A DNA stretch of 64,000 bases from Clostridiaceae bacterium. GTDB taxonomy: Bacteria; Bacillota; Clostridia; Lachnospirales; Lachnospiraceae. The position numbers and the translations under genes were made by a program. The notes beneath the pieces were generated by a model. It saw nothing but the letters and a program-made list of their open reading frames with translations, ran no database searches and was not told the DNA's origin. Shown here in pieces: positions 10,350-29,248 of the stretch. The stretch is from the NCBI GenBank assembly GCA_902363735.1, contig CABJBA010000003.1, forward strand, positions 248,001 through 312,000, given 5' to 3'. The number at the start of each line of letters is the position of its first letter. The stretch's first letter is position 1.

Positions 10350-10967
10350 TTACCGGCCTGCAACAGCCTTCATCATAAGAGCAGCCACAGCAGCTCCCGG
10401 ATCTTTTAAGGAACGGGAGGCCTCTCCTCTGGTTGCTGCCCTCCCATGAACCGCAACCATAGTTGCAGTCTGTTCAAATCCTTCCCAAGAAATCTCTGCC
10501 GCACTTTCAAATCCTTCTTCCAGAGACCTTCCTGCCTCCACTTCTGCCCTAAGAGCTTCCACACCCGGATGAAACCCATCCAAAAATGTCTTATCTCCCG
10601 GTTTTGCCTTACCCAAATCAGCAACACCTGCTTCATAAGCCTCAAACAAAGCCACAACATCGGCTCCGGACAACTCTGTCTTTCCCTTTAAAACTTTCCC
10701 TGCCCGCATCAGGCCTGCCGCCATCAAGGTTCCCATGGTGGAAGGAACCTTATTTCCCATGGTTTTTCCAGCCTTATACAAAAGCTTGCCCAGATCAGTC
10801 TCCAGTCCATCGGAAACCGATTCATAGGCCGCTAAAAATCCATCTCCCATGGTTAGTCCCAAGTCACTGTCTCCCACAATACTGTCCAGCTCAATCAGGT
10901 AATCCCGGTTTTCCCCCATAATCTTACTGATTCTTTCGAGCATGGCTATCAATTCCTGTTGATTCAT
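10350..10967 (-). CDS. dhaL: DhaL-type kinase subunit of the BMC operon
   Basis: 205-residue protein of the DhaL (DAK2) family, the ATP/ADP-binding half of dihydroxyacetone kinases. The Mg-nucleotide aspartate motif reads IVGDSDLGLTM, where DhaL of E. coli has GDGDHG. Further marks are DLGKLLYKAGKTMGNKVPSTMGTL and the C-terminal GRAATRGEASRSLKDPGAAVAALM. The ATG at 10967 is chosen because GGAGG lies five bases ahead; the upstream ATG overlaps that site. It is the last gene of the BMC operon, just after dhaK, and ends at the shared terminator. No DhaM phosphotransfer subunit is in the window, so the phosphate donor (ATP or a PTS protein elsewhere) is unknown. It could act on a ketose other than dihydroxyacetone. 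Confidence 0.88.
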   Translation of the reverse strand: MNQQELIAMLERISKIMGENRDYLIELDSIVGDSDLGLTMGDGFLAAYESVSDGLETDLGKLLYKAGKTMGNKVPSTMGTLMAAGLMRAGKVLKGKTELSGADVVALFEAYEAGVADLGKAKPGDKTFLDGFHPGVEALRAEVEAGRSLEEGFESAAEISWEGFEQTATMVAVHGRAATRGEASRSLKDPGAAVAALMMKAVAGR

Positions 10968-10987
10968 ATCTGCCTCCATTCTGCCCT

Positions 10988-12001
10988 TTACACTGTCCCC
11001 TGTTTAAAGAAAGGTGTATCAGCCGGTGCATCCACATATCCTTTTAGTTCCTCATCCATTTTTAAAAGAGAAATGGACAACCCAGCCATTTCAATGGAAG
11101 TCACATATTCACCGACATAATAACGATAAACCCTGATTCCTTTTTCTTCCAGAATCTGATTGACCTTTCTGGTCACAATATACTGTTCATCAAGAGTAGT
11201 AGCCCCCAGTCCGTTTACAAGAACCGAAACCTCTTCTCCCGCTTTATATGGGATATCCTCAAGTATCTTTTCCATCATTTCCAATGTGACTTCATCTGCA
11301 GTTTCCAGCTTGCCCCGTCGGATTCCCGGTTCTCCATGGATTCCCATACCAATCTCCATCTCCTCATCTCCGATCTCAAATCCTGGATGTCCCACTCTGG
11401 GCACTGTACAAGGAGTCAGAGCCACTCCCATAGTCCTTACATTGTCAGCCGCCTTTTCGGCAATCCGTTTTACTTCCTGGAGATCTTTTCCTGCCGCAGC
11501 AGCAGCGCCTGCACACTTAAATACGAAGAAAATACCGGCTACTCCTCTTCTGGTATTCTTCTCTCCGGGTGCCGCCTTGGGAGATGCCACATCCTCCCCT
11601 GCAACCACGCTTTCCACGCGGATGTCCTCTTCCATATCTGCCATTTCCGCAGCCATATCAAAATTAAAGATATCTCCGTTATAATTGCCGTAAATATAGA
11701 GAACCCCTGCTCCGGAATCAATGCTTTTTGTCACATGAAGCATCTGTTCTGCGCTGGGAGACTGAAATACATCTCCAACGGCACAGCCATCCAGCATCCC
11801 TTTTCCCACATAGCCTAAAAACAGAGGAAGATGACCGGAACCTCCTCCGGTAGCAATCCCCACCTTTCCCTCTACCTTTTGGGAGGTGACAAGACAGCGT
11901 AAATCATCTGCCGTATTAGTGACATAATCCGGATGGGCAAGATAAATTCCCTCCAGCATTTCATTTACATAGTTTTCCGGTGCATTAATCAGTTTTTTCA
12001 T
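10988..12001 (-). CDS. dhaK: DhaK-type kinase, substrate-binding subunit
   Basis: 337-residue DhaK family protein. DhaK binds dihydroxyacetone covalently through a histidine, and that histidine is kept in GMGIHGEPGIRRG. Other marks are GGGSGHLPLFLGYVGKGMLDG, the NYNGD motif and VLVNGLGATTLDEQYI. The start MKKLINAPENYVNEML at 12001 is typical of the family; a longer frame is unsupported. It is 61 bases after the alcohol dehydrogenase gene and 20 before dhaL. Since the operon's aldolase should already release dihydroxyacetone phosphate, this kinase may serve a second C3/C4 ketose feeding the compartment or recover dephosphorylated dihydroxyacetone; this is inference. Confidence 0.9.
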   Translation of the reverse strand: MKKLINAPENYVNEMLEGIYLAHPDYVTNTADDLRCLVTSQKVEGKVGIATGGGSGHLPLFLGYVGKGMLDGCAVGDVFQSPSAEQMLHVTKSIDSGAGVLYIYGNYNGDIFNFDMAAEMADMEEDIRVESVVAGEDVASPKAAPGEKNTRRGVAGIFFVFKCAGAAAAAGKDLQEVKRIAEKAADNVRTMGVALTPCTVPRVGHPGFEIGDEEMEIGMGIHGEPGIRRGKLETADEVTLEMMEKILEDIPYKAGEEVSVLVNGLGATTLDEQYIVTRKVNQILEEKGIRVYRYYVGEYVTSIEMAGLSISLLKMDEELKGYVDAPADTPFFKQGTV

Positions 12002-12062
12002 CCTCTTCCTTCTCCTTCCCACAATTTGCTGCAATTCTTCTGTCCAAAATATCTATAAACTA

Positions 12063-13226
12063 TTATCCATATGCTTTTCCATATACTTCTATGACCTGTT
12101 GAAGTGACGGCTTAATGGGGTTATCTTCCATGCAGGAATCCCGCATTGCAGTTTCTGCCAAAGCCTCAAAATTCCCGGGGGATACATTTAAGTCCCTCAG
12201 ACTCTGTGGAATCCCCACTTCCCTTGACAAACGCCTGATACAGGCTGACGTTTCCTTTACTGCCTGTTCTCCTGTCATGGAAGCTGCTCCGGGAAGCCTT
12301 AACCCTATGGCTGCCTTCTTATACCTTTCTGCGGCCTCCGGCATACTTCCGTTAAATTCCATCACAAAGGGCAGCAAAACCGCATTGCAAATACCATGAG
12401 GCAAGTTCATCAGCCCTCCCAGAGAATGAGCCATAGCATGAACCATACCAAGACCTGCATTGGAAAAAGCCATTCCTGCGCTGTATTCTGCATAAGCCAT
12501 CATTTCCCTGGCTTTTTCATTGCTTCCGTCAGACACTGCCTGGGGAAGATAAGCCTTAATTACGTCCATTGCCCAAAGAGCGTCTTTATCTGTAAAAGGA
12601 GTGGCCCTTTTTGACACTGCCGCCTCAATGGCATGGGTCATGGCATCCATTCCAGTGGAAGCGGTAAGTCCCTTAGGCATGGTCATCATCAATTCCACAT
12701 CGTTGACGGCAATGGTGACCATAGAGTTAGGATCCACCATACACATCTTGGACTGTCTGACAGGATCAGTCACAATATAAAAAGCTGTGACTTCCGAACC
12801 AGTTCCTGCAGTGGTATTGACTGCCACAACCGGAATTCCCGGCTTATGGGAACGGTTGATACCCTCATAATCCTCCACCTTTCCACCGTTTGCCATGACA
12901 ATACTGACCGCTTTTGCAGTGTCAATAGCAGAGCCTCCGCCCACCGCTACCAAAAGATCAACTTCCAGGGCTCTGGCTGCTTCCAGACAGTCATTGACAA
13001 TAATTGTAGTGGGATTTGGTTCAACCAGATAATAGATGGCATACTCCACTCCAGCTTTTAATAAAAAGGTTCCAACCTTATCCCCGGTTCCATTTTCATA
13101 CAGAAATGAATCCGTAACAATAAGCCCCCTCTTAAACCCTCGTTTCTTAAGCTCCTCCGGCAAAAGTTCCATGGATCCCCGGCCAAAGAAGCTGGTACCT
13201 ACTGCATTGATCCTTTCAAACGCCAT
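12063..13226 (-). CDS. Iron-dependent alcohol dehydrogenase of the BMC operon
   Basis: 387-residue group III (iron-containing) alcohol dehydrogenase, similar to FucO/PduQ-type enzymes. The NAD motif is AVGGGSAIDTAKAVSI. Metal ligands are visible as the aspartate and histidine in STGMDAMTHAIEA and histidines in MVHAMAHSLGG and NLPHGICNA. In microcompartments this enzyme reduces the aldehyde to an alcohol and regenerates NAD for the acylating dehydrogenase. The start at 13226 follows AAGGAGG by six bases; the frame upstream of it is not conserved. It lies 11 bases after the CoA-transferase-like B gene. Its substrate here is probably acetaldehyde or another short aldehyde made by the aldolase. 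No obvious encapsulation helix is seen. Confidence 0.93.
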   Translation of the reverse strand: MAFERINAVGTSFFGRGSMELLPEELKKRGFKRGLIVTDSFLYENGTGDKVGTFLLKAGVEYAIYYLVEPNPTTIIVNDCLEAARALEVDLLVAVGGGSAIDTAKAVSIVMANGGKVEDYEGINRSHKPGIPVVAVNTTAGTGSEVTAFYIVTDPVRQSKMCMVDPNSMVTIAVNDVELMMTMPKGLTASTGMDAMTHAIEAAVSKRATPFTDKDALWAMDVIKAYLPQAVSDGSNEKAREMMAYAEYSAGMAFSNAGLGMVHAMAHSLGGLMNLPHGICNAVLLPFVMEFNGSMPEAAERYKKAAIGLRLPGAASMTGEQAVKETSACIRRLSREVGIPQSLRDLNVSPGNFEALAETAMRDSCMEDNPIKPSLQQVIEVYGKAYG

Positions 13227-13237
13227 AAAGAGCCTCC

Positions 13238-13963
13238 TTAGAATTCTATATTTCTGAAATCTCCCGGATCGATCCGTTTCAACGCATTGAGTTCTTCCCT
13301 GGTAGGAAGAGGCGTATAGACCACTGGAGAGAACTTTATGGGAAATCCGGTATTTTCCCGTACCTCTTCCAGACTGGAAGCCGGGTGAATACTTTCCAGA
13401 ATCATTTCTCCATTTTCCATTTTGAAAACACATAAGGGAGTTATAATCCGGTCGACATTTCCCTTAACAGTAACAAAATCCACCTGATTTACAAAGGTTC
13501 GCTTATCATGCTTTGTTCTCCAAAGAATTGCTCTTTTTGCAGTTGGAATCAATACGGCGCTTCCCGCTCCTCCCGGCATTCTCACCTTTGGCTTGTGGTA
13601 ATCTCCAATAACCGACGCATTGACATTACCATGGACATCAAATTGGATTCCGCTTAAAAATGCCATATCCAGGTCTCCTCTCATGGCCAGGTCAAACACT
13701 TCCATTAAGGGAAAATACCCGGTGGAACGTTCCAAAAGTTCTGCACCAGCACTGGTATACCGCTTAAGCCTTGCAGGAGCCGGATCCACTCCACCGGGGA
13801 TATTTAAATGCACTGCTGCTGGCGCATGAAGAGCCTTTGCAAGCATTATTGCAATCATAGGCATATGAGATGAGACACCGTGAAATATTTTTCCGCCATC
13901 AGGTATAAGGCGGGCCATAGCGCAGACCATAATATCGCAGACTCTGTATGTTTCTTTCATCAT
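13238..13963 (-). CDS. CoA-transferase-like protein, subunit B
   Basis: 241-residue protein of the glutaconate-CoA-transferase/IpdB branch of the CoA_trans fold. Recognisable segments are DGGKIFHGVSSHMPMIAIMLAKALHAP, MAFLSGIQFDVHGNVNAS and GGAGSAVLIPTAKR. In true transferases of this type a glutamate sits in a VESG-like turn following the first half of the sheet; here that region reads HLNIPGG and lacks a glutamate. The subunit may therefore act as a CoA-ester hydrolase or lyase like IpdAB, or transfer CoA by another route. ATG codons at 13963 and 13960 are both possible after AAGGAGG. It is adjacent to subunit A (9 bases) inside the BMC operon. Confidence 0.85.
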   Translation of the reverse strand: MMKETYRVCDIMVCAMARLIPDGGKIFHGVSSHMPMIAIMLAKALHAPAAVHLNIPGGVDPAPARLKRYTSAGAELLERSTGYFPLMEVFDLAMRGDLDMAFLSGIQFDVHGNVNASVIGDYHKPKVRMPGGAGSAVLIPTAKRAILWRTKHDKRTFVNQVDFVTVKGNVDRIITPLCVFKMENGEMILESIHPASSLEEVRENTGFPIKFSPVVYTPLPTREELNALKRIDPGDFRNIEF

Positions 13964-13972
13964 ACTGCCTCC

Positions 13973-14785
13973 TTATCCTTTGTAGTCAGACTTTTCAAAT
14001 TCCTTTAAATATTCCCTGAGCCCGTCCAGATTTTTCAGTTCCTTAAACCGCTTTAAATTCTTTTCATCAATGTCATAAGAACCGGAGCAGGAACAAGGCG
14101 CTGCTCCTTTGGATACCCTGACCACCCCATCCACCAGAAAATGAGGAATATCCGCCTTTTGCTGACTCCCTGTAAAAGCTGAGCTACGGACAATATGTTC
14201 AGTTGTCAGAATAACCCGCCTGGCCGCTCTTGAAAACAGCACATCCTCAAATAAAGGCCCTGTGATCCGGGCATTTCCCTCTTCATCAGCCTCCTGGACG
14301 TGAATAACTGCCACATCCGGCCTTATAGCCTTTACTGCTGTCACAGGCTCTCTTGTAAAAGGGTCTTCAACCCGCATAAAGTAATCATTTGCATCAATCA
14401 GATCACTGATTATCAGCCCCTTTACAGGCATGAAACCCACACCAAAACTGGCTGCCCGCAGGGCAGAAATCACAGTATAGCAGGCATGCTCATTCCCTTT
14501 TACAATTCCGCCTTCCACTGCCCTGCGGTAATGTCCTGCCAATGAATATTCGCTTTCATAGCTGATAAATCCTGCATCAACGCTGGAAACACACCCTCCA
14601 AAACAGAGCATATCCACATCCATGGCTCCTGCCGTCTTTACCAGCTTTAAGTTTCTTTTATTCTGGCGCACCAGTTCCCGCACCATTGCCATGGGAGCCC
14701 GGTGGAGAACATTGCCTCCAAGGCCAAGGATATCCCCGTCATGAATCCAGGCCGCCGCCTCCTGCAAAGATATTACCTTGCTCAT
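13973..14785 (-). CDS. CoA-transferase-like protein, subunit A
   Basis: 270-residue partner subunit of the glutaconate-CoA-transferase/IpdA kind. It starts MSKVISLQEAAAWIHDGDILGLGGN, the common start of this family, and shows LKLVKTAGAMDVDMLCFGGCVSSVDAGFISYE and the segment ARITGPLFEDVLFSRAARRVILTTE. A cysteine-rich CSCSGSYDID patch lies near residue 235. The start at 14785 follows an AGAGGA site. Together with subunit B it should form a heterotetramer that handles an acyl-CoA made from the compartment aldehyde. The actual acceptor and donor are unknown. Confidence 0.86.
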   Translation of the reverse strand: MSKVISLQEAAAWIHDGDILGLGGNVLHRAPMAMVRELVRQNKRNLKLVKTAGAMDVDMLCFGGCVSSVDAGFISYESEYSLAGHYRRAVEGGIVKGNEHACYTVISALRAASFGVGFMPVKGLIISDLIDANDYFMRVEDPFTREPVTAVKAIRPDVAVIHVQEADEEGNARITGPLFEDVLFSRAARRVILTTEHIVRSSAFTGSQQKADIPHFLVDGVVRVSKGAAPCSCSGSYDIDEKNLKRFKELKNLDGLREYLKEFEKSDYKG

Positions 14786-14817
14786 GATCTGATCCTCTCT
14801 TTCTATCCTTCCGTCCA

Positions 14818-16152
14818 TTATTTGGCTGCATTGCAGGCAATTTGAATCACATCCCATACGCCGGAAAACGGAGGCGCATAAATCAGATCTGTCATTCCCA
14901 GCTCCGCTGTTGTCATCCTGCAATGAATTGCCACTGCAAACACGTCCGCCCGAAGAACAGCTCCTTTTTGCCCGCAGGTCTGTGCTCCCAGCAGTATTTT
15001 TGTTCCATTTTCATAAATCAGTTTAATGGTGATGGGAGTTGGATTGGGATAATAGGCAGGGTGATCATTTGACCGGATAATGATAGTCTTGTAATCCTTT
15101 CCAAGACGCCTGGCGTCTCCTTCTCCCATACCTGTGCGCCCTAATTCCAGATCACAGACCTTGATTCCTGCCGAACCAAGAGCACCTATAAACTGTTCAT
15201 GACCTCCTGCCAGGTTAGCTCCTGCAATCCTTCCGCATTTGTTGGCAACCGTACCAAGGGCCAGAAAACTGTCTTCCTCCAAAACCTCGTTGTAGACCAG
15301 AATACAATCTCCCGCTGCATATACATCGGGCAGGGAAGTCCTCATCTCCCTGTCAACCAGCAAAGCTCCGTTCTTTCCCATGGAAATCCCCGTATCCTTT
15401 AAAAATTCTGTAGAGGGGCGGACTCCGGCAGCAACAATTACCAAATCTGTCTCATAAGTTCCCTTATCCGTCTTTACCTCTTTTACATAAAGCCCATCTC
15501 CGCAAAAACTTTCTACCTTTTCTCCGGTATGAACCGTTACTCCGCTTCTTACCAGCTCTTCCTGGGCCAGAGCAGCCATTTCCTCATCAAAGGACATTAA
15601 AATTCTGGGAGCAGCCTCCAGCATACGGACATGTTTCCCAATATTTAAAAAGGCTTCCGCACATTCCACCCCAATATATCCGCCTCCCACAATGGTGACG
15701 TTTCGGACTTCCGGCAGCATGGCATATTCCCTTAAAAAGATTCCGTCTTCCAGAGTTTTCAGCACATGGATCCCCAGAAGTTCTTTTCCCGGAAATGGAG
15801 GAACCACTGATTCCGCTCCTGCTGCTATCATCAGCTTGTCATATGTATCCGTAAACTCCTGACCATTTTCCAGATTTCTTACAAGAACCTTTTTCTCCTT
15901 CCCATCAACAGACATCACCTGGTGGCGGAGAAATGTGTCTATGCCCATTTTTGTAAAAGCCTCCCTTGAACGGGCAATCATCTTGCGGTAATCATCATTA
16001 AAGTCTCCTACATAATAAGGGAGTCCGCAGGCTCCGTAAGAGAGAAACCCACCCTTTTCATAGACCGTAACTTCAATATCCGGATTCACCCTTCGGATTT
16101 TGGAAGCGGCGCTCATTCCTGCCGCTACTCCTCCAATTATAATAACCTTCAT
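14818..16152 (-). CDS. CoA-disulfide reductase-like FAD/NAD(P)H oxidoreductase
   Basis: 444-residue flavoprotein of the single-cysteine disulfide reductase group (CoA-disulfide reductase, NADH oxidase/peroxidase, Npsr). The N-terminal FAD motif is VIIIGGVAAGMSAASKIRR. The redox cysteine lies in FLSYGACGLPYYVGDF. A second Rossmann motif is VTIVGGGYIGVECAEAF and the C-terminal FAD motif is VYAAGDCILV. The protein has no fused rhodanese domain. The start at 16152 follows GGAGAG. In this operon it could reduce CoA disulfide or a persulfide, protect the CoA pool used by the dehydrogenase, or consume oxygen. A sulfur role would suit methylthio substrates, but that is a guess. Confidence 0.88.
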   Translation of the reverse strand: MKVIIIGGVAAGMSAASKIRRVNPDIEVTVYEKGGFLSYGACGLPYYVGDFNDDYRKMIARSREAFTKMGIDTFLRHQVMSVDGKEKKVLVRNLENGQEFTDTYDKLMIAAGAESVVPPFPGKELLGIHVLKTLEDGIFLREYAMLPEVRNVTIVGGGYIGVECAEAFLNIGKHVRMLEAAPRILMSFDEEMAALAQEELVRSGVTVHTGEKVESFCGDGLYVKEVKTDKGTYETDLVIVAAGVRPSTEFLKDTGISMGKNGALLVDREMRTSLPDVYAAGDCILVYNEVLEEDSFLALGTVANKCGRIAGANLAGGHEQFIGALGSAGIKVCDLELGRTGMGEGDARRLGKDYKTIIIRSNDHPAYYPNPTPITIKLIYENGTKILLGAQTCGQKGAVLRADVFAVAIHCRMTTAELGMTDLIYAPPFSGVWDVIQIACNAAK

Positions 16153-16165
16153 GTTTTCTCTCCGA

Positions 16166-17284
16166 TCATACGACCTCGTCAATCTCTTTTACGGCCTCCT
16201 TCATAGCTTCCTCCGCCGTTTTTTTTCCGGAAAAGACCTGGAAGATCTTCTCATAAAGAATGCCGTTTTTCTCTCCTGCTTTTGACAGATGAGGTAGGGG
16301 ACTTGCCAGCTCCATCATCTGAAGCTGTACCGGAAACCAAGGGCATTCTTTGGTTCCTTCCTCATAGCTTGCTCTTCTCACCGGAGCACCGCTCTTTCTT
16401 CCTGCTTTCCGGTCTATATCAGGGGATCTTAAGTATTCAAGAAATTTTTGAGCAGCTTCCTTTTTTCCGGAGCTTAAACAGATTCCAAAGGACCAGGTCA
16501 CGTTCCAGGCCGTGGAAAAGGTGGAAAAACCAATATCCCAGGGCTCCAGACAGCCGTCTTTAAAGACTTCTCCCATCTGACCGCTCCAGGTAACTGCCAT
16601 GACCGCTCTTTTTTCCCGGACGGCTGACGCAATTTCTCCGTTTCCGAAATGTTCCGTTCCGTCAACTGCATATTCTTTCAGTGCTGCATAGGACTGAAGT
16701 CCTTTTATAACCTCTTCTTTTTCACAAATTGATTGTCCGCCGGAATCATAAGCATCTCCTCCGTACATTCGAAGGAAAGGAAGAGCGTCCGTAAAGATTT
16801 CAGATTTATGAGCCTTCATTGCTAAGGCCTGCTCTCTGGCGGCTTCCCTGTAAGCCTTTGCCATCTCTATATATTCCTGAGGAGTCATGACACTTCCGGG
16901 TTTCTTTCCCAGCACCTGGTTGAGCAGGCTTTTCCGGTAAAGGATCATATGACCGTCGCAGAAAGAAGGAGATAAGTAGGTTTTCCCTTTATACTTCATT
17001 TCCTCTGCAATAACCGGAAGAATATCTTCCTCCTCATAATCAATTTCTGAAAGGTATCCCTTTTCCACAAAATCACGAAGCCACAGATGGCCTGCAACCA
17101 TAACAATGTCATAATCTGCTTCCCCGGCAAACGCTTTCATCATCATGGAGTAGTAATCCTCCCACGGCACTATATGAAAATCCACTTCTTCGCTGTATCC
17201 GTCTAAAATCCCCAATTCTTTATCCAGATACCCTTTCACCGCCGGGTCTGCCACTGCCAAAACCTTAAGTGTTTCCTGTTTCAT
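16166..17284 (-). CDS. Solute-binding-protein homologue without a signal peptide
   Basis: 372 residues related to family 1 extracellular solute-binding proteins (MalE/UgpB fold), shown by DYDIVMVAGHLWLRDFVEKGYL, YKGKTYLSPSFCDGHMILYRKSLLN, TPQEYIEMAKAY, VTWSGQMGEVFKDG and FLEYLRSPDID. It starts MKQETLKVLAVADPAVKGYL, with no hydrophobic leader and no lipobox. The preceding gene ends about 20 bases upstream, so no exported start is hidden there. It should be cytoplasmic. Its place between the BMC-P gene and the flavoprotein suggests a role tied to the compartment, such as binding substrate, cargo or a metabolite, but no such function is established as far as I know. The ATG at 17284 is favoured over the GTG at 17296, which abuts GAGAGG. 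Confidence 0.82.
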   Translation of the reverse strand: MKQETLKVLAVADPAVKGYLDKELGILDGYSEEVDFHIVPWEDYYSMMMKAFAGEADYDIVMVAGHLWLRDFVEKGYLSEIDYEEEDILPVIAEEMKYKGKTYLSPSFCDGHMILYRKSLLNQVLGKKPGSVMTPQEYIEMAKAYREAAREQALAMKAHKSEIFTDALPFLRMYGGDAYDSGGQSICEKEEVIKGLQSYAALKEYAVDGTEHFGNGEIASAVREKRAVMAVTWSGQMGEVFKDGCLEPWDIGFSTFSTAWNVTWSFGICLSSGKKEAAQKFLEYLRSPDIDRKAGRKSGAPVRRASYEEGTKECPWFPVQLQMMELASPLPHLSKAGEKNGILYEKIFQVFSGKKTAEEAMKEAVKEIDEVV

Positions 17285-17305: not shown

Positions 17306-17566
17306 TTACTTTCCCGGCTGAGGCGGCCCATCTACGATGCCCACAATATAGGCATCTACCGGAGCTGAACGTTCCAAAGCGTACTGGGTCGTATCGTCGG
17401 TAGTTACCAGTACCAGTTCCCCAATTCCTGCTCCTATGGTGTCTGCTGCAACAAAAATACTCTTCTTATCCCCATAATAAGGCTCTACCAGAAGCAGCTT
17501 AAACCCAACCAGGCTTCTGCATTTTCTGGTGGAAACCACGGTTCCCATTACTGTTCCTAATATCAC
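17306..17566 (-). CDS. BMC-P shell vertex protein (EutN/CcmL family)
   Basis: 86-residue pentameric vertex protein of the EutN/CcmL family, which closes the corners of the icosahedral shell. The N-terminus reads (V)ILGTVMGTVVSTRKCRSL, followed by GFKLLLVEP, VAADTIGAGIGELVLVTT and the end APVDAYIVGIVDG, all standard for the family. The GTG at 17566 is chosen because homologues begin MILG, and it overlaps the pduL stop as GTGA, giving translational coupling. It is the only BMC-P gene in the window. Confidence 0.94.
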   Translation of the reverse strand: MILGTVMGTVVSTRKCRSLVGFKLLLVEPYYGDKKSIFVAADTIGAGIGELVLVTTDDTTQYALERSAPVDAYIVGIVDGPPQPGK

Positions 17567-18255: not shown

Positions 18256-18555
18256 CTATTTGATATAAGGAAGGATTGTGCCTATAGAGCTATGAGGTCT
18301 TGGAATCACATGAACTGCAATCACTTCTCCCATTCTGGAGGCCGCTTCTTCTCCTGCTTCCACAGCCGCCTTTACTGCGCCTACATCCCCCTGCACCATG
18401 ACTGATACCAGACCAGAACCGATCTTTTCCGTTCCCACCATCTCAACATCCGCTGCCTTTAACATGGCGTCTGCAGCCTCAATGGAGGCTGTAAGCCCTC
18501 TTGTCTCAATGATTCCCAATGCCAGCATTCCCTTTTTTGCTCCTGTCTCTGCCAT
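18256..18555 (-). CDS. BMC-H shell hexamer protein, canonical (copy 1)
   Basis: 99-residue single-BMC-domain hexameric shell protein of the PduA/EutM/CcmK type. Core: [20 protein letters not shown], then [25 protein letters not shown] and [14 protein letters not shown]. The KIGSG loop lines the pore in related hexamers. It starts directly after the stop of the preceding shell gene (TAA then ATG), with AGGAGG inside that gene. It is a close paralogue of the protein encoded at 18937-19215, differing mainly in an extra eight N-terminal residues, so the pair arose by local duplication. Confidence 0.95.
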
Positions 18556-21965: not shown

Positions 21966-22234
21966 CTTATATTTACCTCCAAAGTACAAATAACTTCGTG
22001 CTTCTTTTTGTTAAAAGCATACTAATTTTATACATAATTCTTATATTATTTACATGATGTTACGTTACTTTATGTTGTTTTCTTTTTGATTTTGCTGATT
22101 TGTTTTTATTTATTTCATTCCTTCTTTACATTTAATAAGAATAATTATACAATATGCTTATATACCACTTGATTTTTATGGTTTTATATTGCATTTAATT
22201 TTAACATCTATGTTACAAAGAAAGGAACATGCCC
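21966..22234. promoter_or_regulatory. Divergent control region of BMC operon and DeoR regulator
   Basis: This 269-base AT-rich gap separates the aldolase gene (minus) from the DeoR-type regulator (plus). It contains TTTATGTTGTTTT at 22069-22081 and GTTTTATATTGCATTTAA at 22181-22198. The first occurs exactly, and the second with two changes, ahead of the ABC-mtnK-mtnA operon near 29.4 kb. They are candidate operators. I could not choose unique promoter boxes in the A/T-rich background. Confidence 0.55.
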
Positions 22235-23002
22235 ATGCTAGCAGTAACGAGGAAAGCCAGGATCAAAGATATTGTTTTAGAAAAGAAAAGCGTTACGGTA
22301 ACCGAGCTTTCAAAGATTTTTTCCGTAACCGAGGAGACCATCCGACGGGACTTAAAACAGTTGGAGGACGACGGATTCCTGACCAGAACATACGGCGGCG
22401 CATTCATACAGGATGGGGTTGAAAATAACGTGGATTTAACCATCCGGGAAACCGCATATATGGAAAGCAAGCAGGCCATTGCAAAGAAATGCTTGTCAGT
22501 GATTCACAACGGAGACTCTATTTTCCTGGATGCCTCTACCACAGCCCTTCAGGTAGCAAAGGCTTTACAGGGAATGCGCCTTACTGTGGTAACAAACTCT
22601 CTCCTGATCATTAACGAGCTTCATGATAAAGAAGACATTCGCCTCATTTCCATAGGAGGTTCCTATACCCCCAGGGATAAGGCCTTTGTAGGAAATACCG
22701 CTATCCAAAATCTGGAATCCTTTTATCTGGATAAAACCTTTATGTCCTGCCGGAGTGTCTCCATGGAACACGGAATTACCGATTCCAATGAAGCAATTGC
22801 TTCCATACGACAATCCCTGTTGACCAGAAGCAATCACGTCTACCTCATAGCAGACCACTCAAAATTCGATAAAACCTCATTTATCCGCATATCAGGTTTT
22901 GATGCCATCACCGGGCTGGTTACCGACAAGCAGATGAGCATCCAGTGGAAAGAATTTCTTCACAAAAATCATATAGAGCTTTACGAAGCATACGAGTTAT
23001 AA
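22235..23002 (+). CDS. DeoR/GlpR-family transcriptional regulator
   Basis: 255-residue DeoR-type regulator. The N-terminal winged helix-turn-helix reads VTELSKIFSVTEETIRRDLKQLEDDGFLTRTYGGAF. The C-terminal sugar-phosphate sensor domain (DeoRC) shows SIFLDASTTALQVAKAL, VVTNSLLIINEL, LISIGGSY and VYLIADHSKFDKTSFIRI. Such proteins generally repress sugar operons and release DNA on binding a phosphorylated sugar, here perhaps the pathway's pentulose 1-phosphate. It is divergent from the BMC operon and lies between it and the mtnA/mtnK operon. The ATG at 22235 is preferred because GGAA is nine bases ahead; the ATG at 22229 is nearly adjacent to it. Confidence 0.92.
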   Translation: MLAVTRKARIKDIVLEKKSVTVTELSKIFSVTEETIRRDLKQLEDDGFLTRTYGGAFIQDGVENNVDLTIRETAYMESKQAIAKKCLSVIHNGDSIFLDASTTALQVAKALQGMRLTVVTNSLLIINELHDKEDIRLISIGGSYTPRDKAFVGNTAIQNLESFYLDKTFMSCRSVSMEHGITDSNEAIASIRQSLLTRSNHVYLIADHSKFDKTSFIRISGFDAITGLVTDKQMSIQWKEFLHKNHIELYEAYEL

Positions 23003-23097: not shown

Positions 23098-24204
23098 TTA
23101 CATCTCTTTCTCTTTCTGAGCTTCTTCTTTTTTCCTGAATATTTCCTTTAAAGATAATTCATACGGTGCCAGGGCAATCCCATATTCCGTTACAATGCCG
23201 GAAATCAAGTCATTGTCCGTCACATCAAAGGCAGGATTAAATACCTTTACGCCTTCTGGAGCCATCCTTTTTTTATACCACATTTCCACAACTTCCTCTG
23301 CGGGACGTTCTTCAATGTGAATTTCTTTACCTGTAGGGGTATTCATGTCAATGGTGGAAGTAGGGGCACAGGTATACATAGGTACTCCGTAACGTTTGGC
23401 TGCCAGAGCCACCATAGAGGTTCCGATTTTGTTAGCCGTGTCCCCATTGGCTGCCACCCGGTCGCATCCAACAAATACGGCATCGACCCAGCCGTTTCTC
23501 ATAACAGTGGCCGACATATTGTCACAGATCACAGTGACATCAAGACCTGATTCCTTTAATTCAAAGGAAGTTAGTCTGGCTCCCTGAAGAAGGGGCCTGG
23601 TCTCATCGGAAAAGATGCGGAAATCATAGCCTTTTTCATGTCCCAAATACATGGGGGCTGTTGCCGTTCCGTACTTTACCGTTGCCAGCTGGCCTGCATT
23701 GCAGTGGGTCAGTAGTCCGTCGCCCGGTTTTACAAGGGACAGTCCATATTCCCCGATCATCCTGCAGACCCAGATATCTTCTTCCCGGATTTCAACTGCT
23801 TCTTTATGGAGAATTTCCACGATCTCAGCAACGGATTTTTCTTTATTTTTCAAAACCACATGCTCCATCCGTCTTAAAGCCCATGATAAATTAACGGCAG
23901 TAGGACGTGCAGAATCAAGATATTCTTTGGCTTTTTGAAACTCTGCATAAAACCCGTCAAAGGTATCTGCCTTGATTTTCCTTGCTGCCAGATATATACC
24001 GATAGCTGCAGCCACACCAATGGCAGGCGCACCTCTTACCTGAAGGAGATAGATCGCATTCCAGATATCCTCCTGTTTGGTCAGGGATAGGATTTCCGTA
24101 TGGTAAGGAAGCTGGGTCTGATCTATAATCACCAGGGCGTTATTTTCTTCATCAAGAGCAACGGTATCATAATCCATAATGGATTTTTTTGTTTCTTCGC
24201 TCAT
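23098..24204 (-). CDS. mtnA: Methylthioribose-1-phosphate isomerase-like protein
   Basis: 368-residue aldose-ketose isomerase of the MtnA/eIF2B-like family. It converts 5-methylthioribose 1-phosphate, and in DHAP-shunt organisms also 5-deoxyribose 1-phosphate, to the ribulose 1-phosphate. Family marks are VRGAPAIGVAAAIG, the catalytic cysteine in THCNAGQLATVKYGTA, and the catalytic aspartate in VFVGCDRVAANGDTANKIGT. AGGAGG precedes the ATG. It is the last gene of the ABC-mtnK-mtnA operon. The classical downstream genes of methionine salvage (mtnB, mtnC/W/X, mtnD, mtnE) are not nearby; the next enzyme available is the BMC class II aldolase. Confidence 0.93.
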   Translation of the reverse strand: MSEETKKSIMDYDTVALDEENNALVIIDQTQLPYHTEILSLTKQEDIWNAIYLLQVRGAPAIGVAAAIGIYLAARKIKADTFDGFYAEFQKAKEYLDSARPTAVNLSWALRRMEHVVLKNKEKSVAEIVEILHKEAVEIREEDIWVCRMIGEYGLSLVKPGDGLLTHCNAGQLATVKYGTATAPMYLGHEKGYDFRIFSDETRPLLQGARLTSFELKESGLDVTVICDNMSATVMRNGWVDAVFVGCDRVAANGDTANKIGTSMVALAAKRYGVPMYTCAPTSTIDMNTPTGKEIHIEERPAEEVVEMWYKKRMAPEGVKVFNPAFDVTDNDLISGIVTEYGIALAPYELSLKEIFRKKEEAQKEKEM

Positions 24205-24239: not shown

Positions 24240-25463
24240 TTAAAACCTGCTCACTGCCTCTTTGATTGCCTTTACGTAGTCCGCTCCACTGCGGAAGCTG
24301 CGCCGTTTGAATATATAATTCTTTGCAAGTGTAATGATGATTTTTTCAGCTCTGGCCCGCTTTTCTTCATCTGGGATTCTGGTAATATCAATGACATTGG
24401 CCATTCCCACAGTACGGCGGATGGATTCCAGCCCTGCCACACCTGCGGTGTCGGAAAGAATTCCTTCCAGATACCATTCTTTAAAGCCAGGTACCTTTGC
24501 CATGGTTTCCGTCACATACTCATCAAACACCTGGTTGTACTTTTCAATGAACATATCCACTATGTCTGAAATGGTGGTTAAGCACCAGCCGCAAAACTCT
24601 TCTTTTTTCGTTTCATCCTCTATAGTTGCATCTCCGTTGCACCATGCAAAAAACATATTTGCAATGATATTGCCAACATCATAGCCCATGGGGCCGAAGA
24701 AAGCGAACTCCGGGTCAAAAATGTATGTGTGTTCCTTGTTTATAAACACAGAACCGGTATGTAAATCCCCATGAATCAGAGACTGGGCATTGTTCATGAA
24801 TTCAATTTTCATTTTAGCCGCTTCCAGATGAAGGGCCTGATCCTCATACAATTCTTTTTTTACAAACTCTGCATTTGGAGGGAATACATTGTTTCGGTGG
24901 TTATAATCGATAAACGGTTCGCTGTATACCAGATCCTCGGTAATCTCGCAGAGATCCGGATTGATAAAGCTTTTGACCAGTTCTTTTTTCTCCTTATGTC
25001 CCATGACAATATCCGTTGTCCGCAGAAGAGAATTAGCCATAAAGGTGGTCACATGGTCTGCAAATTCAGGATATATCTCATGCTTCAGCAGAGCGGTGCG
25101 CATCATGGTGTGACCGGTCATATCTTCCATTGCCATTGCACACATGGTGCCGTCATATAAATACACCTTAGGCACCAGCCCCGGCGCATAGGAATCCTGG
25201 ATTCCCAGGATTTTTGCTTCAATTCTTCCCCTGTCCGTGGAAACACGCATTTCTGCGGAAATACGAAGGGCCTCTCCTGCCTGTTTGACGATGATGGATT
25301 TCCCGCTTGCCGGTTCCGTTACCCGGAACACATAATTTAAATTCCCGTCTCCAATCTCCTTGCATTCCAGACTGGCAGACTTACTAAAATAGGAAAGCTT
25401 CTCCTGAACATAGTCCGGTACATCTTCCGCTTTCATCAAAAAATAACTGTCGTATTTAGACAT
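24240..25463 (-). CDS. mtnK: Methylthioribose/5-deoxyribose kinase-like protein
   Basis: 407-residue kinase of the MtnK (APH-like) fold. It phosphorylates C1 of free 5-methylthioribose, or by relation 5-deoxyribose, with ATP. Marks are IGDGNLNYVFRV (nucleotide loop), KSIIVKQAGE (lysine), the catalytic loop SLIHGDLHTGSVFI and the metal-binding FDPEFAFFGPMGYDVGN. The ATG at 25463 follows GGAAGG by eight bases. It is 36 bases ahead of mtnA and 40 bases after the permease gene, so import, phosphorylation and isomerisation are encoded in one operon. Because it works on a free sugar, the partner phosphorylase or nucleosidase must be elsewhere or outside the cell. Confidence 0.93.
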   Translation of the reverse strand: MSKYDSYFLMKAEDVPDYVQEKLSYFSKSASLECKEIGDGNLNYVFRVTEPASGKSIIVKQAGEALRISAEMRVSTDRGRIEAKILGIQDSYAPGLVPKVYLYDGTMCAMAMEDMTGHTMMRTALLKHEIYPEFADHVTTFMANSLLRTTDIVMGHKEKKELVKSFINPDLCEITEDLVYSEPFIDYNHRNNVFPPNAEFVKKELYEDQALHLEAAKMKIEFMNNAQSLIHGDLHTGSVFINKEHTYIFDPEFAFFGPMGYDVGNIIANMFFAWCNGDATIEDETKKEEFCGWCLTTISDIVDMFIEKYNQVFDEYVTETMAKVPGFKEWYLEGILSDTAGVAGLESIRRTVGMANVIDITRIPDEEKRARAEKIIITLAKNYIFKRRSFRSGADYVKAIKEAVSRF

Positions 25464-25502
25464 TCCTGTCACCTTCCCCTGATCATTATTATGCTTTTGT
25501 TT

Positions 25503-26522
25503 TTAGTTACCATTTTTTGTCTTGCCGCTTGCGTACGTCATGGCAAGAGCGATGGCAAGAACCGCTCCCTTAATGATGTTCATGGCATAATAAGGCACTG
25601 ACATCATAATAAGACCGTTTTCCAGCATACCCACCAGCACTGCTCCCGCAAAGGTACCAAATGCATTGGCCTTTCCTGCACCTAATACGGAGAAACCAAT
25701 ATAAGCCGCACATACGGAGGGCATCAGATACGAGTCACCTGCTGAAATCTGGGCTGTTCCCACACGGGCTGCCAGACAGATTCCGCCGACGGAAGCAAAG
25801 GTGGCTGACAGAAAGTAAGCCAGTATTTTATACCTTGCCACTGGAATACCGGAAAGCTGGGCTGCCTCAGGATTTCCGCCAACTGCGTACATGTATCTGC
25901 CGTGTTTGGTATAATTTAAGAAAAAATATGCGAACAGCACCACGCAGATCATAATGATAATCAGCCACGGCTCTTTTCCCAGTGCCCGGAATGCTTCAGG
26001 AACAAGGCCCGGTGCCTGGCTTCCGTCAGGGCGGGTCATGCGTTCTGTGATGGCTCCGCCTCTGGAATAAGTCATAGAAACACCCTGATACATAAACATA
26101 ACAGAAAGCGCAGCAACCATATCCGGTATTTTGAATCTGACGATTAAAATGCTGTTAATAACCGCAACACTCAAACAAATGAGCACCGTAAGAACGATAG
26201 AAACACCAATATTGATATTGTGCCATACAAAACATGTCATAACCAAAACGTTTGCAAACTGAGCCGTAGCTCCAATGGAAAGATCCATGCCGTTTACCGC
26301 CAGAGCAAACGTAAGCCCCGTTGCAATAATAGTGGTAATGGACACCGCCCGAAGAATCGTAACCATATTGGACTGGGTCAGAAACATGCTCGTCCCCGTA
26401 TCCTTACTCCAGTTTCCGAATGTGAACAAAACAAACATAATGAGCATAGTTGCAATGGTGCCCCATTTTGTCACAAAGTCTCCGGCATTGATTTTCTTTT
26501 TTACCTTTTCTGCCCCAGACAT
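25503..26522 (-). CDS. Sugar ABC transporter permease (RbsC-like)
   Basis: 339-residue integral membrane protein of the BPD_transp_2 family used by ribose, xylose and autoinducer-2 importers. About eight to ten hydrophobic helices are visible, with the conserved GMDLSIGA, the RFKIPDMVAALSVMFMYQG segment and the AVGGNPEAAQLSGIPV coupling motif typical of RbsC. It starts one base after the stop of the ATPase gene. In this operon it should carry a ribose-like sugar, most simply the substrate of the kinase that follows. Confidence 0.94.
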   Translation of the reverse strand: MSGAEKVKKKINAGDFVTKWGTIATMLIMFVLFTFGNWSKDTGTSMFLTQSNMVTILRAVSITTIIATGLTFALAVNGMDLSIGATAQFANVLVMTCFVWHNINIGVSIVLTVLICLSVAVINSILIVRFKIPDMVAALSVMFMYQGVSMTYSRGGAITERMTRPDGSQAPGLVPEAFRALGKEPWLIIIMICVVLFAYFFLNYTKHGRYMYAVGGNPEAAQLSGIPVARYKILAYFLSATFASVGGICLAARVGTAQISAGDSYLMPSVCAAYIGFSVLGAGKANAFGTFAGAVLVGMLENGLIMMSVPYYAMNIIKGAVLAIALAMTYASGKTKNGN

Positions 26523-26523
26523 A

Positions 26524-28035
26524 TCATTTACCTCCTGTGGAATAGTAAAGCAGTTCTTTTTCGTTGGTATCCGCCGTTTTTAGCTCTTTAATGATTTCTC
26601 CGTCATACATCACATAAATCCGGTCACAGATACTTAATATTTCCTGGAATTCACAGGTAGCATAAATGATACCTTTTCCTTTGGCTGCCAGCCCCTCGAT
26701 CAGTTCATACATATCCTGCTTTGCCCCCACATCAATCCCCTTGGTGGGCTCATCAAAAATATAGACCTCCGAATCCTTATTCAGCCACTTTCCAACCACC
26801 ACCTTCTGCTGGTTTCCCCCGGACAGCAGGGCAACAATCTGGTTTTCCGATGGAGTTTTAATCCCAAGGTCCCGTATCATACCTCTGGCATCCTCTTTTT
26901 CCCGTTTCCTGTTTACCACTGAAAAACGGCTGGTGTACTTTTCCATAGCTGCAACAGAAATATTGGATACAACCGGATCCGTAATCAGGACACCTTCCTT
27001 TCTCCGTTCCTCGGGAACCAGAGCCAGCCCGTTTTTCACGGCCTGAGCAGGCCCCTTTGCCCTGATTACTTTTCCGTCCAGCTTCATGGTACCGCCTGCG
27101 TGCTGGTAAGCGGAAAACAAGGTTTTGCAAAGCTCTGTTTTTCCTGCGCCCACAAGTCCAGCCACACCGATGATTTCTCCTTTACAGACGGACATGGTAA
27201 TGTTTTTTACTTTTCCTTCTTTTTCTGTAAGGTTTTCTATTTCAAGCAGCGGCCCGCCGATCTCGCATCTTTTTCTTATGTAATTATCCTCATAGCTGCG
27301 GCCCAACATATATTCCACAAGAGTGTTTACTTCCAGTTCTCTGGTGAGGGGCAAATTAGTTACCAGCTTGCCATCCCTCATTATGGTAATGGTTTCACAG
27401 ATTTCATACAGTTCACTTAAACGGTGGGAAATAAACACCACCCCTACATCTTCTTTTGCCAGTTCCCGCACTACCCGGAACAATTCCAGCGTCTCGGAAT
27501 TGGAAAGAGGAGCCGTCGGTTCATCTAAAATCAGGAACCGGCACTTTTCCACCACGCATCTGGCAATGAGAACCATCTGTTTCTGTGCCAGAGTCAGTCC
27601 TGATACCTGTTTGTTCACATCCACGTTTACATTTAGTTTCTTTAATACCGTTTCTGCTGCCTGTCTGATCTTTTTCCAGTGTATGATCTGTTTACGCCCC
27701 ATCTTATTGACTAAGGTGTTAAACATTACATTCTCAGCCACAGACAGATAGGGGATCAGCGCGGTGTCGACTTCCTGGAATACAATCTCTATTCCAAGAT
27801 TTTTTGCGTCTTTGGGGCACCGGATTTCCACCGGTTCCCCTCCAACGTAAATTTGTCCTGTATAATGCGTATTGACGCCGGCAAGCACTTTCATCAGGGT
27901 AGACTTACCGGCGCCGTTGGCACCCACCAGCGCATGAATCGTACCACTTGTCAGGCTAAAATCAACTCCATTAAGGGCCTTTACCCCTGGAAATTCAATG
28001 GATATATCTTTCATTTCAAGTTTAACTTCATTCAT
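26524..28035 (-). CDS. Sugar ABC transporter ATPase with two ATPase domains (RbsA-like)
   Basis: 503 residues, the usual length of RbsA/MglA-type duplicated ATPases. The first domain has Walker A GANGAGKST and Walker B FLILDEPTAPLS; its signature is degenerate (SGLTLAQKQM). The second has a degenerate loop VAGLVGAGKTELCK, the signature LLSGGNQQKVVVGKWL and VYIFDEPTKGIDVGAK. This asymmetric pattern is normal for the family. It powers import together with the adjacent permease and lipoprotein. The gene lies 43 bases after the binding-protein gene. Confidence 0.95.
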   Translation of the reverse strand: MNEVKLEMKDISIEFPGVKALNGVDFSLTSGTIHALVGANGAGKSTLMKVLAGVNTHYTGQIYVGGEPVEIRCPKDAKNLGIEIVFQEVDTALIPYLSVAENVMFNTLVNKMGRKQIIHWKKIRQAAETVLKKLNVNVDVNKQVSGLTLAQKQMVLIARCVVEKCRFLILDEPTAPLSNSETLELFRVVRELAKEDVGVVFISHRLSELYEICETITIMRDGKLVTNLPLTRELEVNTLVEYMLGRSYEDNYIRKRCEIGGPLLEIENLTEKEGKVKNITMSVCKGEIIGVAGLVGAGKTELCKTLFSAYQHAGGTMKLDGKVIRAKGPAQAVKNGLALVPEERRKEGVLITDPVVSNISVAAMEKYTSRFSVVNRKREKEDARGMIRDLGIKTPSENQIVALLSGGNQQKVVVGKWLNKDSEVYIFDEPTKGIDVGAKQDMYELIEGLAAKGKGIIYATCEFQEILSICDRIYVMYDGEIIKELKTADTNEKELLYYSTGGK

Positions 28036-28078
28036 GGCATCTTTTCCTTACTATGTAATGGACGCGGAGCACTTATAT

Positions 28079-29248
28079 TTATTCTGAATAAGCTCCCTTG
28101 ATTGCATCATTGTATAAAGCATTAGGATCTTCCGCATCGCCCCAGCCATCAATAATGGTTGCCAGATCCGCCATAGTGTCCTTTTCTGAAAGCTGAGTTG
28201 TTAAAATATTGCTTGCATCCAGATCAAAATAATCCGGTGTTTCTTCTCCCATAAACTTCAGGGCCAGAAGGCGTACATCCACAATACCGATCAGTTTGGG
28301 ATCAACAGCTGCGGTAGATTTCCATACGTCGGGATTCTTAACCATAAGCTGGATATCGTCATTAGATACGTCAATGGTATACATGGGAATATCGGTCCGT
28401 CCAGCATCATTCAATGCCTGCAGTACGCCCTTTGCCAACTCGTCGTAGCATCCCCAGATAGCATCTACGGAGCCTTCCGGATACTTAGGAAGAATAGCAG
28501 CAGTCTTATTGGTCATATCGCCCCGGGCGTTAGCTGAATCAGATGGTGCAATCACTTCTAAAGTCTGGATTTTGCCTTCTGCTTCCAGCTTGGTATATAT
28601 TTCATTACGTCTGTCAAGAGGAGGGATTCCAGGGCCCATAAAGGTCTTTAAAACCTTCATCGGATAAGTTCCCCCATTTGCTTCGAATTCTTCCATCATA
28701 TAGCCAAGGGAAAGCTCAGCCAGTGCCTGGTCATTCTGAGCGGTGGAAGTCACTCCTTCCAGAAGCTCACCGCTTGCATCGCCGCCCTTAAATGGCATGG
28801 TGTCAAAAGTTACAACCTCCATACCCTTGTCCCTGGCAGGCTTTAACATCTCATAAGAATAGGATAACTGTCCATGAGATACGATGATTCCGTCATAGTC
28901 CTTTGAAATAACCTGGGCTACCGTCTCCTGGGCTCTTGCGTCATCTCCATCTGTTACAAAGGTATCAACAGTCCAGCCGAACTTTTTACCTTCAGATACG
29001 CAGCCATCCAAAAACTGCTGGGTATGGTCTCCTGCTGCCAGGTTCCGTACAACGGCAATCTTCTTTCCTGCCAATGAAACTGCTGTCTGACTCTCTCCTG
29101 CCTTCTCCGTCGCAGTTGTCTGAGTCTCAGCCTTTGTCGTTTCCGTTTTTGCCTCTGTAGTTGCCGGTGCAGCTGTACCGCTGCTGCCGCATGCTGTTGC
29201 AGACAATACCATTGCTGCTGCAAGCACCATTGCTAACTTCTTTTTCAT
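28079..29248 (-). CDS. Sugar-binding lipoprotein of the ABC importer
   Basis: 389-residue periplasmic-type binding protein. The signal peptide MKKKLAMVLAAAMVLSATAC ends in a lipobox with cysteine 20, followed by a Thr/Ala/Glu-rich spacer and then KKIAVVRNLAAGDHTQQFLDGC, the start of a Peripla_BP_4 ribose-type domain. Further marks are QVISKDYDGIIVSHGQ, MYTIDVSNDDIQLM. It begins the importer operon, with a strong AGGAGG before the ATG and a consensus-like promoter upstream. Ligand is not known; the kinase and isomerase behind it point to a 5-modified ribose. Confidence 0.94.
   Translation of the reverse strand: MKKKLAMVLAAAMVLSATACGSSGTAAPATTEAKTETTKAETQTTATEKAGESQTAVSLAGKKIAVVRNLAAGDHTQQFLDGCVSEGKKFGWTVDTFVTDGDDARAQETVAQVISKDYDGIIVSHGQLSYSYEMLKPARDKGMEVVTFDTMPFKGGDASGELLEGVTSTAQNDQALAELSLGYMMEEFEANGGTYPMKVLKTFMGPGIPPLDRRNEIYTKLEAEGKIQTLEVIAPSDSANARGDMTNKTAAILPKYPEGSVDAIWGCYDELAKGVLQALNDAGRTDIPMYTIDVSNDDIQLMVKNPDVWKSTAAVDPKLIGIVDVRLLALKFMGEETPDYFDLDASNILTTQLSEKDTMADLATIIDGWGDAEDPNALYNDAIKGAYSE

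Follow-up and report, generated by a model that had tools for sequence, protein, structure and literature searches.

The stretch of DNA analysed here (the window, 64,000 nucleotides) belongs to the genome of Clostridiaceae bacterium, a member of the Lachnospiraceae (GenBank assembly GCA_902363735.1, contig CABJBA010000003.1, positions 248,001 to 312,000), and it contains a 15-gene operon for a bacterial microcompartment (BMC) that adjoins a five-gene operon encoding an ATP-binding cassette (ABC) importer, MtnK and MtnA. As judged by family scans, all the genes of the BMC operon lie on the minus strand; the importer operon is located upstream, with a divergent DeoR gene between them. The locus extends from position 10350, exactly the end of dhaL, to position 29248, exactly the end of the gene for the importer binding protein. 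Its genes are given below from 5' to 3', first for the BMC operon, then for the regulator and the importer operon.

21009..21965 (from the ATG), minus strand: class II aldolase (PF00596) with a core, a disordered linker and a C-terminal helix of the encapsulation-peptide type, by alignment, model and tree
19577..20998, minus strand: CoA-acylating aldehyde dehydrogenase, PduP/EutE type, with an amphipathic N-terminal helix (NF011927, 645 bits, above the cut-off of 403; nearest solved structures 5jfl and 4c3s)
19222..19560, minus strand: BMC-H shell protein 4, divergent (PF00936)
18937..19215, minus strand: BMC-H shell protein 3 (PF00936)
18556..18909, minus strand: BMC-H shell protein 2 (PF00936)
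18256..18555, minus strand: BMC-H shell protein 1 (PF00936)
17563..18219, minus strand: PduL phosphotransacylase with an amphipathic N-terminal helix (PF06130; NF011652, 254 bits)
17306..17566, minus strand: BMC-P (EutN/CcmL) vertex protein, GTG start (PF03319)
16166..17284, minus strand: SBP_bac_1-like protein, similar to solute-binding proteins (PF01547; MalE3-like 6dtq, 7e-16)
14818..16152, minus strand: CoA-disulfide reductase/NADH oxidase-like flavoprotein (NF007123, 563 bits, above the cut-off of 458)
13973..14785, minus strand: CoA-transferase-like subunit A (PF01144; 5mzw, 1.2e-39)
13238..13963, minus strand: CoA-transferase-like subunit B (PF01144)
12063..13226, minus strand: iron-dependent alcohol dehydrogenase (Fe-ADH), the metabolosome core alcohol dehydrogenase (PF00465/PF25137; lactaldehyde reductase family TIGR02638, 409 bits, below the cut-off of 523)
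10988..12001, minus strand: dhaK-like dihydroxyacetone kinase subunit (PF02733; TIGR02363, 393 bits, below the cut-off of 406), start set by the Shine-Dalgarno sequence
10350..10979, minus strand: dhaL-like gene, last of the BMC operon (PF02734; TIGR02365, 121.5 bits, below the cut-off of 138.3)
22229..23002, plus strand: DeoR-family regulator, divergent, between the operons (PF00455/PF08220)
28079..29248, minus strand: importer sugar-binding protein (PF13407)
26524..28035, minus strand: ABC ATPase of the ribose/arabinose (AraG/RbsA) type (PF00005, in 2 stretches)
25503..26522, minus strand: ABC permease of the ribose (RbsC) type (PF02653)
24240..25463, minus strand: mtnK, methylthioribose kinase family (TIGR01767, 415.8 bits, above the cut-off of 275)
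23098..24204, minus strand: mtnA, methylthioribose-1-phosphate isomerase family (TIGR00512, 410.1 bits, above the cut-off of 279)

An earlier note on this DNA, made from its letters, had described a BMC operon led by a class II aldolase, with an aldehyde dehydrogenase, PduL, an alcohol dehydrogenase and shell genes, next to an operon with a ribose-type ABC importer, an MtnK-like kinase and an MtnA-like isomerase; all of these were found in place, MtnK and MtnA scoring over their curated cut-offs. The note had not mentioned DhaK and DhaL, the SBP-like protein, the CoA-disulfide-reductase-like flavoprotein and the two CoA-transferase-like subunits, nor the divergent DeoR gene. The BMC operon thus contains the three core enzymes of a metabolosome, that is, the acylating aldehyde dehydrogenase (AldDH), the phosphotransacylase PduL and the alcohol dehydrogenase (AlcDH), together with four BMC-H genes, each with one BMC domain, and one BMC-P gene; no tandem-domain BMC-T was found among the operon genes. 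In the family scans, neither the 20 operon proteins nor the DeoR protein matched an isomerase or kinase family for rhamnose or fucose, and no ribokinase family turned up in the two operons. A glycyl radical enzyme with its activating enzyme, a DeoC-type aldolase (PF01791) and RpiB (PF02502) were all absent from the operon proteins scanned, and so was mtnB, in a search that covered the operon proteins and not the rest of the genome.

The name of the aldolase cannot be read from protein families, because among the matches listed (25 of 31 families) it exceeded no NCBIfam cut-off, the best score being 120 bits against a cut-off of 250. MtnB, the enzyme of the universal methionine salvage, was considered and rejected (TIGR03328, 86 bits, cut-off 137). 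The tree placed the window aldolase in a clade of 31 rows (bootstrap 100, SH-aLRT 99) that leaves outside the aldolases of the rhamnose/fucose BMC type called GRM5. This clade contains the aldolases of two BMC arrangements, types A and B, described below, those of non-BMC mtnK-mtnA-aldolase and mtnA-aldolase operons, and seven further rows without a close mtnA or at the clade edge (L047-L049, L052, L054-L056). A quick tree of 68 rows, which left out L085 and L005, and a careful one of 63 rows were built; the rows dropped before the latter as truncated, distant or long-branched were L085, L005, L026, L036, L037, L027 and L028. The aldolases at least 58% identical to that of the window did not form exactly one clade in the best tree, where L054, L055 and L056 also fell inside; one clade was not rejected (approximately unbiased test, p 0.206). 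A single clade of all BMC-linked aldolases was rejected (p 5e-50), and a single clade for types A and B was not (p 0.248), and for this latter reason we do not claim two independent encapsulations of the enzyme. Together, these sequence comparisons support the view that the aldolase belongs with those of mtnK-mtnA operons and not with the rhamnose/fucose (GRM5) aldolases.

The zinc ligands and the catalytic Glu are kept in the window aldolase, which has Leu, Pro, Arg and Leu where FucA has Tyr113, Phe131, Phe206 and Tyr209. The Pro and Arg replacements are common to the rhamnose/fucose group. At the Leu position, 17 of 17 rhamnose/fucose rows have Met, and 20 of the 22 mtn-linked rows share the Leu.

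The association of the two operons is conserved. In a sample of 25 genomes of the genus, the aldolase was present in 15 and mtnK in the same 15, the other 10 having neither. mtnA was found in 14 of the 15, where it shares a single contig with the aldolase and mtnK, all three within about 5 kb; in the exception, G793, the assembly looks broken at the locus, since the aldolase gene begins 303 bases into a contig and the match to mtnK stops at residue 260. One kind or another of BMC-P gene occurred in 25 of 25 genomes, so that BMCs as such do not explain the co-presence of aldolase and mtnK. Among relatives with a species name, the closest is Lacrimispora celerecrescens (aldolase identity 87%; a Lacrimispora protein at 92% appears in the protein listing). 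L. algidixylanolytica and [Clostridium] aerotolerans have the same genes in the same order as far as dhaK, at which their stretches end (L001-L003), and synteny was also found in two further genomes of the family, in L009 up to the flavoprotein gene and in L006 from mtnK to the Fe-ADH gene. Across the family sample, a kinase over the MTRK cut-off occurred in 16 of 397 genomes, at 17 loci, six of which (G001, L006, L009, L014, L015, L019) have BMC genes in the fetched stretch, as found by tblastn with the window proteins over about 10 kb on each side, less at contig ends. Several stretches stop at contig ends, and the absences are therefore lower bounds.

Seen from the aldolase, mtnA was carried in the fetched stretch by 19 of the 24 loci with 58% or greater identity to the window aldolase (16 from one search plus 8 from a second), and by 2 of 25 loci at 43-56% identity (L054 and L055, about 8.5 kb off). 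The latter set, which was picked from the better-ranked matches below 58% and is not all such matches, contains loci of the GRM5 type that carry glycyl radical enzymes or genes for rhamnose/fucose. The difference gave a Fisher p of 3.7e-7, uncorrected for relatedness. As the pairing recurs in relatives, it is not a chance proximity; homologous BMC loci with a class II aldolase do co-occur with mtnA and mtnK in other genomes, and the two operons are supported as one conserved unit.

The linked loci show two arrangements. Type A comprises the window, L001-L003, L006 and L009, of which L006 starts at mtnK and L009 stops within the flavoprotein gene. Type B (L014, L015, L019) consists of mtnK, mtnA, a divergent DeoR gene, a RuBisCO-like gene, the aldolase, PduL and BMC-P, followed by PduP, a PduS-like gene, a double-BMC protein and BMC-H, with a further BMC-P in L015 and L019; a PduP gene was not seen in the L019 stretch. 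The importer precedes mtnK in L014 and L019, and L015 begins at mtnK. The RuBisCO-like gene opens the BMC operon in type B and immediately precedes the aldolase (L019:12343-13485, L014:12376-13530, L015:3849-4994), and was called by Pfam in L019 (PF00016, 95 bits) and by BLAST in L014 and L015. Close aldolase relatives in L047 and L052 are accompanied by RuBisCO-like genes and apparent phosphotransferase-system and TIM-like genes instead of mtnA and mtnK, so that the aldolase clade may also serve another route.

The aldolase bears a C-terminal tail. The AlphaFold model (54 sequences) had a mean pLDDT of 70.5 with a mostly confident core, a linker (residues 244-308) below 50 and a helix at 304-325, at about 70 from residue 311 on. 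This helix is kept after a variable linker in an alignment of the window aldolase with 53 of 120 listed homologues, and the tail was present in 11 of 11 BMC-linked loci of the clade, the window included. The AldDH and PduL also have terminal helices of the encapsulation-peptide type, at amphipathic N-termini, and MtnA and MtnK are not extended at either end relative to the non-BMC orthologues examined. From sequence and model, the tail of the aldolase may be an encapsulation signal.

A shared motif precedes both operons. The following sites of the 13-mer AAAACAACATAAA were located by word counts:

22069..22081, minus strand: candidate operator AAAACAACATAAA before the BMC operon
29404..29416, minus strand: candidate operator, exact copy, before the importer-mtnK-mtnA operon
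29372..29384, minus strand: candidate operator, copy with one mismatch

The exact 13-mer occurs just twice in the 64 kb, once before each operon. Allowing one mismatch, there are four sites against 0.20 expected, a number reached in 0 of 100 shuffles; the fourth, at 61926, is outside the locus. The test was not blind, because the word had been spotted by eye in both stretches before counting. In L001-L003 a 12-mer core occupies the corresponding position upstream of the aldolase, and in L001 and L002 it also precedes the gene for the binding protein; L009 has two copies ahead of the aldolase and L046 has one, and the core is also present in L019 and L036. The earlier note had named unlinked expression of the two operons as evidence that would speak against it; from this shared candidate operator they appear to be co-regulated. 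Rfam gave no match at gathering scores within 5000-35000, and promoter and terminator scans gave counts at or below shuffle means.

The computed results are the genes present, their conserved linkage, the place of the aldolase in the tree, the terminal helices (from sequence and model) and the shared motif; from these we infer the substrates, the reactions, the location inside the shell and the regulation. We propose, with a probability of about 0.68, that the neighbouring operons form one pathway, a dihydroxyacetone phosphate (DHAP) shunt with its aldehyde-releasing step in a metabolosome, for 5-deoxyribose or methylthioribose. The importer would bring 5-deoxyribose or 5-methylthioribose into the cell, where the cytosolic enzymes of the MtnK and MtnA families would convert them to the pentulose 1-phosphate. 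The tail-bearing class II aldolase, in the shell, would split this compound into DHAP and an aldehyde, acetaldehyde from 5-deoxyribose or methylthioacetaldehyde from methylthioribose. The shell would trap the reactive aldehyde, which the acylating AldDH and the Fe-ADH would disproportionate to acyl-CoA and alcohol; PduL would then provide acyl phosphate for ATP, and DHAP would leave to glycolysis. The DeoR protein may repress both operons through the shared 13-bp operator. These sugars are waste products of S-adenosylmethionine (SAM) chemistry excreted by other bacteria. The earlier note had the cell using its own SAM by-products. An internal source is possible, since a family of methylthioadenosine/S-adenosylhomocysteine (MTA/SAH) nucleosidases (TIGR01704) was found in 25 of 25 genus genomes; the importer points instead to external sugar.

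A different explanation would be that the BMC is an ordinary PVM-like or GRM5-type compartment for fuculose- or rhamnulose-1-phosphate, with an unrelated mtnK-mtnA salvage operon alongside. We consider this unlikely, although it has support both in print and in our data. A 2021 survey proposed a fucose/rhamnose-like substrate for PVM-like loci (PMC8156839), and class II aldolases have been termed promiscuous (PMC4207490). The following observations favour that explanation and weigh against a joint pathway. The best NCBIfam family of the Fe-ADH is lactaldehyde reductase, although below its cut-off, as a fucose/rhamnose function predicts. Two loci, L004 and L046, have a type A shell without mtnK and mtnA, implying that the shell does not need this feeder; neither were the flavoprotein, CoA-transferase, SBP-like and DhaK/DhaL genes found there, so that within type A the accessory genes go with mtnK and mtnA. 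A copy of the 12-mer core immediately precedes the aldolase of L073, a GRM5-like locus linked to rhamnose (L073:10489-10500). The motif is thus not confined to mtnK-linked loci and may predate the mtnK link; it may serve this family of regulators more widely as an operator, and in the window it marks both operons. On the other hand, the operon proteins include no rhamnose or fucose isomerase or kinase family, and the importer operon lacks an aldolase, in contrast to the mtnK-mtnA operons without a BMC, which include one from the window clade (L029-L032, L013, L018). The rejection of one clade for all BMC-linked aldolases, the linkage of the block in 14 of 15 genus genomes and the shared motif argue in the same direction.

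Slightly less probable, in our view, is that the layout is as proposed but serves D-ribose or some other nucleoside-derived 5-substituted ribose, so that ribulose 1-phosphate is formed and glycolaldehyde or another aldehyde arises in the shell. The importer is of the ribose type; close aldolases lie near a nucleoside hydrolase (L046, whose stretch also holds a xylose-isomerase-like protein) or beside a pyrimidine nucleoside phosphorylase (L048); RbsD/FucU-like genes, called by sequence likeness, are near mtnK-mtnA in L013, L014, L017 and L019; and the ribulose-1-phosphate aldolase family matched the window aldolase with 85 bits, its cut-off being 300. However, MtnK and MtnA are well over the cut-offs of the methylthioribose enzymes, MtnA matching ribose-1,5-bisphosphate isomerase far less well (187.8 bits, below the cut-off of 314.1), and a ribokinase family is missing from the operons. 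It is quite improbable that the aldolase stays outside the shell, its tail serving another contact, with only the aldehyde branch enclosed, or being a relic: the helix is conserved after a variable linker and all the BMC-linked loci of the clade have it. Even so, 8 of 17 genomes with a BMC-free aldolase locus have a tailed aldolase, and in six of these eight no BMC domain was found (L029-L032, L047 and L070, in G756, G597, G533, G637, G037 and G471). Here the tail may be a relic or have another use, and its presence was therefore rejected as proof of encapsulation. Among the 9 genomes of that set with a tailless aldolase, one has BMC genes elsewhere. The C-terminus of MtnK reaches a hydrophobic moment of 0.69, equal to that of the aldolase, which means that a high moment alone says little.

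Further results also count against the proposed DHAP-shunt metabolosome. DrdA, the characterised 5-deoxyribulose-1-phosphate aldolase, represented by 6btd, whose PDB title is deoxyribose-phosphate aldolase of B. thuringiensis, falls in another clade with FucA-like aldolases, several of them near other mtnK genes, and we know of no assayed member of the clade of the window aldolase. As this clade differs from that of the assayed DrdA, the substrate proposed for the window aldolase comes from its operon company. The co-presence in the genus is one inherited block and not 15 independent events. In the class sample, MTRK exceeded its cut-off in 18 of 391 genomes with adjacent BMC genes only in G001, and 5 of the 24 close aldolases (G371, G037, G258, G113, G212) lack mtnA nearby. 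Finally, the DhaK/DhaL, CoA-transferase, SBP-like and CoA-disulfide-reductase-like proteins are neither needed nor explained by the scheme.

Regarding these accessory genes, the SBP-like protein (16166-17284) resembles maltose-binding proteins, shows no visible signal peptide and is conserved in L001-L003, L006 and L009. The nearest solved relative of CoA-transferase-like subunit A is in the glutaconate CoA-transferase family (5mzw). DhaK, or DhaK with DhaL, was found near mtnK-mtnA at 5 of the 17 family loci (G001, L013, L014, L020, L021), two of them without an aldolase in the fetched stretch. The window DhaK keeps the HGEPG motif in its row against 3ct4. A kinase for the free pentulose would be one guess for DhaK/DhaL. 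In L020 and L021, DhaK/DhaL come directly after mtnA; the gene that follows resembles, by eye, a PfkB kinase, and the stretch lacks an aldolase.

Some observations concern the surroundings and other mtnK genes. A phosphopentomutase gene, deoB (31296-32483), lies 2 kb past the importer operon, and cobalamin-synthesis genes (5911-9276) lie past the other end of the locus. The genus genomes G785 and G794 hold a second mtnK (45-46%) and a second mtnA (31-32%); in L087 (G785:C1:3880101-3882411) a FucA-like aldolase adjoins them, perhaps as a second route in the same cell. MTRK-like paralogues (24-27% identity) are near BMC genes in L023 and L045, where no aldolase hit was obtained, and they may resemble the methylthioribose kinase gene beside the pdu cluster of A. 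woodii, which has been called unrelated to BMC function (PMC7593272).

A wider proposal, which we hold tentatively and at somewhat under even odds, is that the DHAP-shunt metabolosome is a distinct organelle class by which anaerobic Lachnospiraceae ferment 5-deoxyribose and methylthioribose, with two shell arrangements, one of them recruiting the RuBisCO-like protein as a pentulose-phosphate isomerase or epimerase acting just before the aldolase, and with the substrate of the PVM-like type misassigned in Firmicutes. If the pathway is as proposed, a substrate would be available for a catalogued BMC type for which we found no assay, and a recently described salvage pathway would be placed in an organelle. 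E. coli without the DHAP shunt excretes methylthioribose and 5-deoxyribose, and with the shunt it respires 5-deoxyribose and cannot ferment it (PMC10986504); our proposal would explain how an anaerobe ferments a sugar that shunt-carrying E. coli only respires. What becomes of SAM by-products in communities of the gut and of sediments may then depend on metabolosome carriers that import the sugars excreted by others. The RuBisCO-like gene of type B would be a new context for that family.

In agreement with the earlier note, which knew of no experimental report of such a compartment, the literature search, with subscription journals and preprints outside its reach, found no paper proposing a BMC for 5-deoxyribose, 5-deoxyadenosine or methylthioadenosine, or one with mtnK; for methylthioribose together with a BMC, the A. 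woodii paper (PMC7593272) was the one hit. The word thioribose is absent from the accessible main texts of the 2014 taxonomy (PMC4207490) and the 2021 catalogue (PMC8217296), and no word starting with ribose was found in that of the 2021 survey (PMC8156839), supplements aside in each case. The comparison with published catalogues, which the earlier note had also suggested, indicates that the BMC part probably belongs to the PVM-like type, an assignment made from the published description. PVM-like loci of Firmicutes have been described by Axen 2014 (PMC4207490), Sutter 2021 (PMC8217296) and Asija 2021 (PMC8156839), the last being the source of the fucose/rhamnose-like substrate; the class II aldolase, the DeoR regulator and BMC-H genes outnumbering BMC-P (PMC4207490) are all present in the window. 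Only one member of the 2014 set encodes an AlcDH (PMC4207490), whereas the window has an AlcDH and the adjacent importer-mtnK-mtnA operon. What is new here, as supported by sequence comparison, is the substrate proposed for a PVM-like aldolase metabolosome and its conserved pairing with mtnK-mtnA.

The GRM5 BMC, for rhamnose and fucose, has in common with the window a homologous aldolase (43-56% identity), the AldDH, PduL and shell genes; in contrast, the window operons lack its glycyl radical enzyme and activator, and the window aldolase lies outside the GRM5 group. The SPU BMC, for 2-deoxyribose-5-phosphate (PMC8217296), resembles the proposed system in that an aldolase gives a triose phosphate and acetaldehyde, and the use of sugars derived from nucleic acids or nucleosides is proposed for both; its DeoC-type aldolase and RpiB, however, have no counterpart among the window operon genes. 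The closest pathway is the DHAP shunt itself, known from the E. coli mtnK-mtnA-ald2 genes (PMC10986504) and a Bacillus thuringiensis cluster (PMC8102628), in which kinase, isomerase and class II aldolase follow in the same reaction order. The window differs from it in having an aldolase from another clade than DrdA, with a tail and a shell operon, and the aldehyde would be disproportionated within the BMC.

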